From assembly GCA_913009315.1 (NCBI GenBank), contig CAJVZA010000001.1, forward strand, positions 1 to 64,000: 64,000 nucleotides of DNA, given 5' to 3'. Source of the DNA: an uncultured Hippea sp. Its GTDB lineage: Bacteria > Campylobacterota_A > Desulfurellia > JAADFJ01. The notes below the pieces were generated by a model. The model made no database searches. It was not told where the DNA came from and saw only the letters and a list, made by a program, of their open reading frames with translations. How positions within the stretch are numbered: the first letter of the stretch is position 1; the number at the start of each line of letters is the position of its first letter. Below are positions 46,033-48,789 of this stretch, piece by piece. A program made the translations under genes and the position numbers.

Positions 46033-46758
46033 TTGATAATTATAGACACTCTTTCTGCTGAAATTTTCAATTTATCTTGCGGCTGTTTCGTCTATATCCG
46101 TTTTGCTCAAGATAGTATTATTGTATAAGAGGAGTCGCGAGCGTAAATGAAGCAATCTGATCTCAATGTCCGGGGCAGGAAATTGTTTCGCTTACGCCCG
46201 CGATGACAATAAGAAAGAATAATGTTGCGATGATTTCTCTTCCATATATTGCGAACATCCGAAGAATATGCGGCAGTCTTAGCGTATAACGGGTGTTGCG
46301 AGCATTTTCTCCGTCATTGCAATGAGACTGCTTCGGTCTTCGGCCTCGCAGTGACGAAAAATAGAGGTCATTGCAAGCGAAAGAGGAAATCTCAGTTTCT
46401 TAAGTGTATCACAGGCATCCTGCCTATGGTGAGATTGCTTCGCTGTGCTCGCAATGATAAGTGGAAGTAATCGTAATGACAAGAAAAAAGAGACGGCAAT
46501 TGCCCCCGTTTCTGTCACTGCGAGGCCGAAGCAGTCTCATAATAGGGAACCTGCTTTCTATAATAATTCTTGTTTCCCTCAGATATTTTTCAAAATCCTT
46601 CATAGTTAATTATTTTTTGCAATTAACAAACATACCGTTAATATGCAAATTATGACATATTATGCTTATTAAAACAAAGGCTAAAGTTATAATATGACTT
46701 TGGCTCTTGACATCCAACAGTATTTTATGCTAAAAGTATAATATATGTATAAAAAACA
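46033..46758. other. 726-bp intergenic region filled with palindromic repeats
   Basis: No gene is seen. Several copies of the GTCATTGCGAG / GCAATCTC repeat occupy 46171-46545 (listed separately). The final 200 bases are very AT-rich and lead into the first cassette gene, with a possible promoter (TTGACA 46707-46712, TAAAAG 46731-46736, 18-bp spacer). No integrase gene and no convincing attI site are present. Confidence 0.55.
46171..46545. repeat. cluster of five palindromic intergenic repeats
   Basis: Copies or half-copies are visible at about 46181-46207 (GTTTCGCTTACGCCCGCGATGAC), 46313-46358 (CGTCATTGCAATGAGACTGC ... CTCGCAGTGACG), 46367-46397 (GGTCATTGCAAGCGAAAG), 46430-46460 (GAGATTGCTTCGCTGTGCTC) and 46513-46545 (CTGTCACTGCGAGGCCGAAG). 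Orientation alternates. It is the same family as at 204-345 and 62322-62450. Confidence 0.7.
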
Positions 46759-47472
46759 ATGTTGGGTGCAATGAGCGTATGTACGACGACACCAGAAATT
46801 ATTACTGCAATTAAGGATATTTTACTTGGTGCAGCTGCTGCAACAACTGCAATAGTTGCGGTAGTTGGCCTGAAGAACTGGAGTCGTGAACTACGCGGAA
46901 AAACGGAGTTTGAAGTAGCTCGCAATCTAATGAAAGCTACATATCGAGTTAGAGATAAACTTCAGTATAGTCGGGCTCCATTCGTTGCTGCTGGGGAATT
47001 TCCATCAGACTATCCATGCCCACAGGCTGCAACAGCAGAACAAAAAGCACAAGCTTTGAACTATGTGTACAGGAACCGCTGGGAGCCTGTGCGTGAGGCA
47101 TTACAGGAACTTGAAACCCATGTGCTTGAGGCAGAGGCGCTTTGGGGTGGTGACATCCGAGCAAAGACAGATGAGCTACGGCAGTATGCAAGGGAACTGC
47201 AAGTAGCCATGGAATCAATCGTTGATGATAAAGCACAGCGTGGCGAGGACTTCAAAACTGATAAAGATTTTGGAAAGAAAATGAAAAGTACCGCACATGC
47301 ATCAAGAGGCGATGAGACAAACGAGCTCAACATGAAAATAAAACAAGCAGTTAATGCAATTGAAGATCAAGTACGCCCCCCATCTGCGTCGCAGCTAACA
47401 AGGCGCTGCACCGGACGGCAATTCCGCTACGCTCCATTGCCAGCCGGTTATGCGGAGCGTTATACGCATTGA
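46759..47472 (+). CDS. cassette-encoded protein of unknown function with one membrane helix
   Basis: This product of up to 237 residues has an N-terminal membrane helix (ILLGAAAATTAIVAVVGL), then a soluble helical region rich in charged residues (EFEVARNLMKATYRVRDKLQ; EPVREALQELETHVLEAEAL). The last 30 or so codons run through the attC site, which is common for cassette genes, so the true C-terminus may be partly attC-derived. Base composition is richer in G and C than neighbouring genes, consistent with transfer. The start is ATG 46759 or 46771; neither has a good ribosome binding site. I do not recognise a family. Confidence 0.6.
   Translation: MLGAMSVCTTTPEIITAIKDILLGAAAATTAIVAVVGLKNWSRELRGKTEFEVARNLMKATYRVRDKLQYSRAPFVAAGEFPSDYPCPQAATAEQKAQALNYVYRNRWEPVREALQELETHVLEAEALWGGDIRAKTDELRQYARELQVAMESIVDDKAQRGEDFKTDKDFGKKMKSTAHASRGDETNELNMKIKQAVNAIEDQVRPPSASQLTRRCTGRQFRYAPLPAGYAERYTH
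47393..47465 (+). other. attC recombination site 1
   Basis: This 73-bp site begins AGCTAAC and ends GTTATAC. Internal pairing includes ACCGG with CCGGT and GGCAAT with ATTGCC around CGCTACG, forming the expected folded hairpin, and CGCT pairs with AGCG near the outer ends. It lies at the 3' end of the unknown cassette gene. Confidence 0.8.
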
Positions 47473-47475
47473 TAC

Positions 47476-47504
47476 TTGACAGCAGTTTAAACTTTGTATA
47501 AACT
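47476..47504 (+). promoter_or_regulatory. cassette-borne promoter of mazEF
   Basis: TTGACA (47476-47481), a 17-bp spacer and TAAACT (47499-47504) start 11 bases after attC site 1. Transcription would begin at about the A of ATG 47511; there is no ribosome binding site, so mazE appears leaderless. A promoter inside the cassette is typical of toxin-antitoxin cassettes. Confidence 0.6.
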
Positions 47505-47510
47505 TATAGT

Positions 47511-47747
47511 ATGAAAGCGACTATTCAGAAGTGGGGCAATAGCCTCGGTATAAGGATTCCCAAAATGATTGCGAAAGAGCTGATGCTTAAGAATGGCTCA
47601 GAAGTGGAGCTTTATGAAGAGTCAGACAAGATCATCATTCAACCTCAGAAAAAGCCCTTGCTTAATGACCTCCTTGAGGAGATTAATGATAAAAACATTC
47701 ATGGTGAAGTAGAAACGGAAGGTCCGTACGGCAAGGAGATCTGGTAA
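47511..47747 (+). CDS. mazE: MazE-type antitoxin (AbrB/SpoVT fold)
   Basis: This 78-residue protein starts with MKATIQKWGNSLGIRIPKMI, the swapped-hairpin AbrB DNA-binding fold of MazE, followed by VELYEESDKIIIQPQKKP and an acidic C-terminal tail that should neutralise the toxin. It overlaps mazF by one base (TAATG). It autoregulates the pair in known systems. Confidence 0.92.
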   Translation: MKATIQKWGNSLGIRIPKMIAKELMLKNGSEVELYEESDKIIIQPQKKPLLNDLLEEINDKNIHGEVETEGPYGKEIW

Positions 47748-48079
47748 TGGCCGGCTATCTGCCGAAAAGAGGGGACGTAATCTGGCTAGATTTCAGTCCT
47801 CAGGCTGGCCATGAACAAGCTGGTAAACGACCGGCGATTGTGCTTTCACCGGAAGAATATAATAGAAAAACCGGTTTACTTATTGCGTGTCCAATCACCA
47901 GTAAAGTGAAAGGATATCCTTTCGAAGTGCCGCTGAAAGTTAAAAAGATAGATGGAGTTGTATTATCTGATCAGGTCAAGAGCTTCGATTGGAAAGTCAG
48001 AAAAGCAGCATTTGCAGAAAAAGCACCTGTAGCGGTATTAGAAGAAGTTCAGAGCAAACTTCTGCTGTTAATTGAGTAA
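47747..48079 (+). CDS. mazF: MazF-type mRNA interferase toxin
   Basis: This 110-residue PemK/MazF-fold protein has PKRGDVIWLDFSPQAGHEQA, KRPAIVLSPEEYN and LIACPITSKVKGYPFEVPL, plus VVLSDQVKSFDW; the Arg and Ser/Thr near the active site of MazF are kept. It cleaves mRNA when freed from MazE. Presence in an integron cassette would stabilise the array. Confidence 0.94.
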   Translation: MAGYLPKRGDVIWLDFSPQAGHEQAGKRPAIVLSPEEYNRKTGLLIACPITSKVKGYPFEVPLKVKKIDGVVLSDQVKSFDWKVRKAAFAEKAPVAVLEEVQSKLLLLIE

Positions 48080-48123
48080 GGGGAGTGTTTTGGCTTATAA
48101 AACATTGAATCGCTTTGAAATGC

Positions 48124-48192
48124 ACATAACAAGCGAATGAACCGATTTTGACTCATTTCACTTGCCGAAACCGGTTATTCTCGGCGTTGTGT
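48124..48192 (+). other. attC recombination site 2
   Basis: This 69-bp site begins ACATAAC and ends GTTGTGT (six of seven bases complementary). GAAT pairs with ATTC and AACCG with CGGTT, leaving one unpaired G on the left arm; this is the extrahelical base that orients integrase on folded attC. It follows mazF and separates it from the next cassette. Confidence 0.85.
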
Positions 48193-48216
48193 TTTGAAAA
48201 ATAGGGGGTAAATATT

Positions 48217-48423
48217 ATGAGCAGCAAAGATGTACTAGAAAAAGCATTGAAACTAAAACCAGATGAAAGGTTTATGGTAGTCGAAGGTCTGATAAGGAGT
48301 CTAGATGAACCCGACAGTTCACTTGATGCAATATGGGTTGAAGAGGCAGAAAAGAGGCTAAAAGCCTATCGCTCAGGTAATCTTGTAGGGATCCCTATGG
48401 AGGAAATATTCAAGAAAGAATAA
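48217..48423 (+). CDS. addiction-module antitoxin (TIGR02574-like)
   Basis: This 68-residue acidic helical protein shows KALKLKPDERFMVVEGLIRS, LDAIWVEEAEKRLKAYRSG and GIPMEEIFK, the usual pattern of 'putative addiction module component' antitoxins paired with RelE/ParE toxins. A clear ribosome binding site (AGGGGGT) precedes it. It overlaps the toxin start by one base. Confidence 0.88.
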   Translation: MSSKDVLEKALKLKPDERFMVVEGLIRSLDEPDSSLDAIWVEEAEKRLKAYRSGNLVGIPMEEIFKKE

Positions 48424-48719
48424 TGAAGGTCATATTTTCAAAGTATGCGAAACAAGAACTTGATGATGCCACTTATTTCTACGAGATAAAATCTCAAGGT
48501 CTTGGAAAGCGATTCAGAGAGGAGGTCAGAAAGGCTGCAAAAAGAATTACAGAATATCCAAAGGCATGGTCTGTGGAACGAGGTGATGTTCGGAAATGTC
48601 TTCTGCACAGCTTCCCCTACAAAATGCTTTACTCTATTGAGCAAGATCATATTTTTATAATTGTAGTAGCGCACCAGCATCAAAGACCGAATTATTGGAT
48701 TGAAAGGACGAAAACATAA
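48423..48719 (+). CDS. RelE/ParE-family toxin
   Basis: This 98-residue protein has the RelE/ParE fold pattern: VIFSKYAKQELDDATYFYE, GLGKRFREEVRKAAKRITEY, VRKCLLHSFPYKMLYSIE, IIVVAHQHQRPNYW. Whether it acts on the ribosome or on gyrase is not decided by sequence. Its stop codon (TAA) is part of attC site 3, typical for a cassette gene. Confidence 0.9.
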   Translation: MKVIFSKYAKQELDDATYFYEIKSQGLGKRFREEVRKAAKRITEYPKAWSVERGDVRKCLLHSFPYKMLYSIEQDHIFIIVVAHQHQRPNYWIERTKT

Positions 48720-48789
48720 CAATGCAAATCAATTCGGACTGGTTTCGTCGCTACGCTCCTCAACTAGCCGGTTATTTGCGGCGTTATCT
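48714..48789 (+). other. attC recombination site 3
   Basis: This 76-bp site begins ACATAAC (overlapping the toxin stop) and ends GTTATCT (six of seven complementary). GCAAAT pairs with ATTTGC, then an unpaired C, then AA with TT and CGG with CCG. The interior CGCTACGCTCC matches site 1. It closes the third cassette. Confidence 0.85.

Follow-up and report, generated by a model that had tools for sequence, protein, structure and literature searches.

A probable integron cassette array without integrase, carrying two toxin-antitoxin pairs, in the chromosome of a Desulfurellia bacterium

The sequence examined comprises bases 1-64000 of contig C1 (the window), taken from an assembly of 1.74 Mb. 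Its + strand carries three gene units, in each of which an ORF or an ORF pair is directly followed by an attC-like site in the same direction. The array starts at position 46762 and ends with the third site at 48789; its left end abuts on a dispersed repeat of ~175 bp (46584..46761, + strand), the terminal GTT of which forms the left junction. Array and repeat are part of a segment (46072..49718) flanked by the genes for a FixX-like ferredoxin and a CcdA/DsbD-like protein. BLASTN showed this segment to be missing from the corresponding locus of two congeners, the flanks of which are collinear (about 93-94% in G020 and 73-82% in G021). The congeners carry 436 bp (G020) and 91 bp (G021) between these genes. 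As the flanking genes adjoin without the array in both G020 and G021, the array at this locus is specific to its own lineage, having been either gained here or lost in the congeners.

Cassette 1 (46762..47459, + strand, 698 bp, bounded at the G|TT crossover) carries an ORF (46771..47472, + strand) with a hydrophobic N-terminus, the frame of which continues through the attC site. The encoded protein matched neither a Pfam family nor a PADLOC model. Relatives with ~40% identity are hypothetical proteins on two Burkholderiaceae plasmids, where an integrase is absent from the annotation and attC sites are absent according to our model; searches of phages, viral contigs and the remaining 24 genomes of the group yielded none. 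Cassette 2 (47460..48186, + strand, 727 bp) encodes a MazE antitoxin (47511..47747, + strand; PF04014, 57 bits, cut-off 24.7) and a MazF endoribonuclease toxin (47747..48079, + strand; NF007386, an equivalog model, 141 bits, cut-off 120; also PF02452). With MazF above the curated cut-off and a MazE-fold antitoxin adjacent to it, a toxin-antitoxin function is predicted for this pair. A promoter-like element (TTGACA-17-TAAACT; 47476..47504, + strand) upstream of mazE was picked up by a consensus scan only, and matches to the consensus are not above chance across the region as a whole. Cassette 3 (48187..48783, + strand, 597 bp) contains a ParDE/RelBE-type pair composed of an Unstab_antitox family antitoxin (48217..48423, + strand; PF09720, 57.3 bits, cut-off 23.3; TIGR02574, 32.2 bits, barely above the cut-off of 31.9) and a ParE/RelE-superfamily toxin (48423..48719, + strand; ParE_toxin family PF05016, 35.8 bits, cut-off 23), relatives of which (~30%) adjoin attC sites in two proteobacterial integrons, one of them betaproteobacterial and the other from Gallionella. 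The curated family cut-offs thereby bear out the initial annotation, made on the sequence alone, in its claim that two of the three cassettes are toxin-antitoxin pairs. Integrons are well known to harbour toxin-antitoxin cassettes (PMC8618304, PMC11023631), so that such pairs are to be expected in the array. By analogy with the proposal made for Vibrio superintegrons, MazEF and the ParDE-like pair would probably act as addiction modules that penalise the loss of the array.

To the right of the array lies an AbrB-type antitoxin with a PIN-domain toxin (48900..49563, + strand; PF04014, PF13470, TIGR00305), the toxin gene being interrupted by an in-frame stop codon. The model search gave no attC match behind this pair, which is therefore no demonstrable cassette. 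It is likewise missing from the same locus in the congeners.

The attC sites were identified with a covariance model, R1, including the R and L stems, which we built from 26 foreign attC sites, originating from class 1 integron plasmids and from genomes of many phyla that carry intI, with none taken from the own genome; it is a model other than that of IntegronFinder. R1 matched attC1 (47394-47465, 72 nt) with 25.1 bits (E 1.3e-4), attC2 (48124-48192, 69 nt) with 26.7 bits (E 4.8e-5) and attC3 (48714-48789, 76 nt) with 23.6 bits (E 3.2e-4). These three matches, clustered within 1.4 kb in one orientation on the + strand, are the sole ones in the 64-kb window up to E 5. As a specificity control, 68 held-out intI-bearing loci (0.79 Mb) were searched after orienting intI on the + strand: all matches of at least 17 bits fell on the - strand, which is the cassette strand opposite to intI, and the top wrong-strand match reached 16.7 bits. 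Because wrong-strand matches start only at this value, the 23.6-26.7 bits of attC1-3 are well inside the specific range of the model; they lie near the bottom of the attC score range. Among the 25 genomes of the group, 16 were without any model match at E <= 0.05. An Rfam scan of the window matched nothing, and a regular-expression scan with strict R-box pairing picked up the left junction only and missed all three sites, because the R' present in place is part of the next cassette. The earlier proposal of three attC-like sites, each following a gene unit in the same orientation, is hence confirmed by a significant R1 match at every one of them.

On insertion from a circle, a cassette retains in its first bases the sequence by which its own attC was formerly completed, and these bases should thus pair with the R'' core of that site. 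The starts of cassettes 1, 2 and 3 complement their own R'' at 8/12, 10/12 and 9/12 positions, respectively, the lowest complementarity in the window being that at the left boundary of cassette 1. For the six cassettes of the own genome with readable boundaries, namely the three in the window and those on C3, C69 and C9, the true pairing yielded 38 matches out of 54 outside the AAC core compared to a permutation mean of 21, and was the best among 720 permutations, the other 719 all being lower. In cassettes 1 and 2, R'' matches the own start better than the right core now in place; in cassette 3, both match about equally.

Folding of the bottom strands gave a mixed picture. The canonical stem is formed by attC3, whereas in attC2 an arm-to-arm stem requires the R' core of the excised circle and is not formed in place, and attC1 does not form it. 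The folding z-scores are weak, those of attC1 and of attC2 in place being no better than for shuffled sequence. The single unpaired base attributed beforehand to sites 2 and 3 is thus retained for site 3 at best and is not upheld for site 2, where a stem exists in the circle form only. The weak z-scores of the in-place sites would fit the view that attC1-3 represent unrelated repeats or hairpins formed by chance next to toxin-antitoxin operons. This view is highly improbable in the light of the independent model matches, the strand test, the complementarity of cassette starts to R'' and the near-identical arms shared with integrons from other phyla.

Over 52 nt, attC1 has 88% identity to a Desulfacinum infernum attC located near intI; the arms of attC3 are nearly the same as those of a gammaproteobacterial integron attC. 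Both resemblances support the suggested link of the array to a wider cassette pool. The placement of the host as Desulfobacterota-like was not borne out; we infer that it belongs to a separate family within the Desulfurellia, the class of Hippea and Desulfurella. At least six more attC sites are present in the own genome, on C3, C69, C23 and C9 and, as weaker matches, on C55 and C18. Genes linked to them comprise an isochorismatase (C3), a HicBA pair (C69) and a glyoxalase-like protein (C18), the last of which was named by eye. The C69 HicBA cassette is preceded by a decayed attC (15.4 bits); the model did not recover a degenerate attC that visual inspection had suggested upstream of the C3 cassette. 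Clusters of attC sites also occur in several relatives of the group. In G020, a DRT2 defence reverse transcriptase cassette (C75; L147 645-1916, minus strand; PADLOC E 1e-193) is directly followed by an attC, and other attC-adjoining genes in the group match the candidate defence families PDC-S49 and HEC-06. Adapter-like translated sequence (e.g. NDTATTEIYTLSLHDALPI) was noticed at L103 30-200 (C23), L171 1-60 (C55), the end of L175 and L142 3034-3210; it is a probable sequencing adapter left in assemblies.

The left junction is distinguished by the exact coincidence of the array start with the terminal GTT of the ~175-bp repeat, the end sequence of which is TATGTATAAAAAACAATGTT. The repeat has eight matches in the own genome (G000), including C36:17320-17483, C55:839-996, C70:1629-1788 and C40:403-541, three partial ones in G020 and only traces elsewhere. 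From the GTT of the C70 copy onwards, a HicB-HicA pair is followed by AGATAACAAGTCAGCAC, which resembles an attC left arm and complements the start of the C70 cassette at 9/11 positions; a right attC arm was not recognised for this cassette. At C36, the repeat copy likewise precedes a cassette-like start. The cassettes may have landed at repeat-borne GTT sites; alternatively, the repeat itself may be a dispersed attI-like element. In an extended form, the ~175-bp repeat might be a multi-copy attI-like landing site with its GTT end preferred for docking, by which docking sites would spread in a MITE-like manner without an integrase of their own; we consider this idea doubtful. The repeat end shared by the junctions of the array and of the HicBA cassette is the least explained feature of the locus. 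A second, very common family (GCGAGGCCGAAGCAGTCTC) is represented in the window by inverted repeats at 46300-46540, with dozens of matches in both the own genome and G020.

A profile search revealed no convincing trace of intI in the 64-kb window, even at E 1, and no attI was recognisable there. In particular, the left flank was rejected as a C9/C14-type attI, its similarity to these regions not being above that of shuffles. The window accordingly lacks integrase and attI as first described, and a complete integron, that is intI and attI adjoining the array, was not found, with the array located ~15 kb from the nearer contig end. The search for intI elsewhere in the genome did recover such genes, all of them broken. 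The sole convincing gene by the IntI profile, on C14 (L009 10251-11359), is spread over three frames; it contains the IntI-specific insertion and its central part is 70-74% identical to IntI proteins of Campylobacterota. The two frameshifts both fall within runs of A, which makes assembly errors possible. Smaller intI fragments adjoin attC sites on three contigs and consist of a C-terminus on C69, 34 residues on C3 (E about 7e-4) and 14 residues on C18 (E about 3e-4). XerC/D-like recombinases on C5, C15 and C26 also matched the IntI profile and were rejected on account of an overall identity to IntI of only 22-28%. The IntI-specific stretch used as query gave no further match in the 25 genomes of the group; it missed a truncated gene of the phage integrase family that adjoins attC sites in G012. 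In the usual integron layout, intI is divergent from the cassettes. The C-terminal remnants L010 693-1007 (C69) and L178 ~690-790 (C18) are oriented in the same direction as the following cassettes.

An attI-like core, AATAAATAGTT, is located upstream of intI in five related loci (L021, L023, L024, L025 and L030), the hosts of which belong to the Campylobacterota, the Methylococcales and the cyanobacteria (one genome). The exact core also precedes a Mrr-like nuclease cassette on C9. Because the pattern with one mismatch is not rare in the AT-rich own genome, the weight of the core rests on its position. Contig C14 stops at the attI-like AATAAAGAGTTA, one base from AATAAATAGTT; a first cassette that varies within the population could account for this stop. 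It may be asked on this basis whether a split integron is complete in the living cell, with the C14 intI being intact, its frameshifts mere sequencing errors, and acting in trans on the dispersed cassettes. All catalytic positions are apparently encoded across the three frames, and a contig end exactly at AATAAAGAGTTA would suit a variable first cassette as well as an assembler halting at a repeat. We nevertheless regard this scenario as unlikely given the two frameshifts, the adapter-like sequence on other contigs, pointing to Illumina data, in which run-length errors are few, and a window contig that is unbroken at the array.

Based on the attC model matches and the complementarity between the cassette starts and their own R'', we interpret the locus, in agreement with the initial annotation, as a CALIN, i.e. 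three integron cassettes in the chromosome with no integrase nearby, and assign a probability of about 0.93 to this reading. For its formation we envisage that a tyrosine recombinase of the IntI type, probably similar in kind to that encoded by the broken gene on C14, inserted each cassette from a circle by joining the folded single-stranded bottom strand of attC to a G|TT site. CALINs have been proposed to originate from off-target insertion by an IntI encoded elsewhere, from rearrangement or from loss of intI (PMC8618304). The last of these origins would make the array the remnant of a complete integron at the same place, with intI and attI deleted or decayed beyond recognition, and the decayed intI fragments beside the attC sites on C3, C69 and C18 are in line with it. 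This local decay is also improbable, considering a window without convincing intI trace, a left flank formed by a dispersed repeat that is unlike the C9/C14 attI regions beyond chance, and the absence of an integron at the locus in both congeners. Since the left end is the GTT of a repeat and not a AATAAATAGTT attI core, secondary-site insertion or relocation from a lost platform appears likelier than on-the-spot loss of intI; off-target insertion or rearrangement would be favoured by the repeat-borne left end together with the empty congener locus and the missing intI trace. Following this preferred CALIN reading, the array is probably static now because the assembly is without an intact integrase, a gene which could be missing from an assembly that is 88% complete and divided into 96 contigs. 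Excision by an integrase newly entering the cell would still be possible. CALIN cassettes are mobilisable in trans (PMC12444791, PMC9668308).

The array is new in place and lineage and ordinary in kind, namely a known type of integron relic. Its description extends the record of integron relics to the Desulfurellia, a small lineage of anaerobic sulfur reducers, and the shared attC arms join the cassettes of this class to a pool used by Desulfobacterota and Gammaproteobacteria. Within one genome, nearly all stages of integron decay are displayed, including broken intI, a free attI-like site, single cassettes and small CALINs. Should the repeat truly serve for docking, this would offer a clue to the way in which cassettes become scattered over a chromosome.

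Compared with the closest known system, the array differs in its Desulfurellia host, in the decayed intI located on other contigs and in a left end placed on a repeat. The sedentary chromosomal integron of Vibrio cholerae (PMC11023631) likewise contains toxin-antitoxin pairs as two-gene cassettes with attC; while it comprises well over a hundred cassettes, the present array has three and is devoid of a working integrase. The integron of Desulfacinum infernum DSM 9756 (L096), which holds the counterpart of attC1 near an intI homologue, belongs to a different phylum, and its IntI is only 45% identical to the C14 fragment. Finally, insertion at attG, that is at sites other than attI and attC, as far as it is cited in PMC12444791, resembles the situation described here, in which the array and single cassettes reside at G|TT away from attI. 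In contrast to attG insertion as cited there, the event would here be deduced from junctions only, and the target site is situated at the end of a repeat family.
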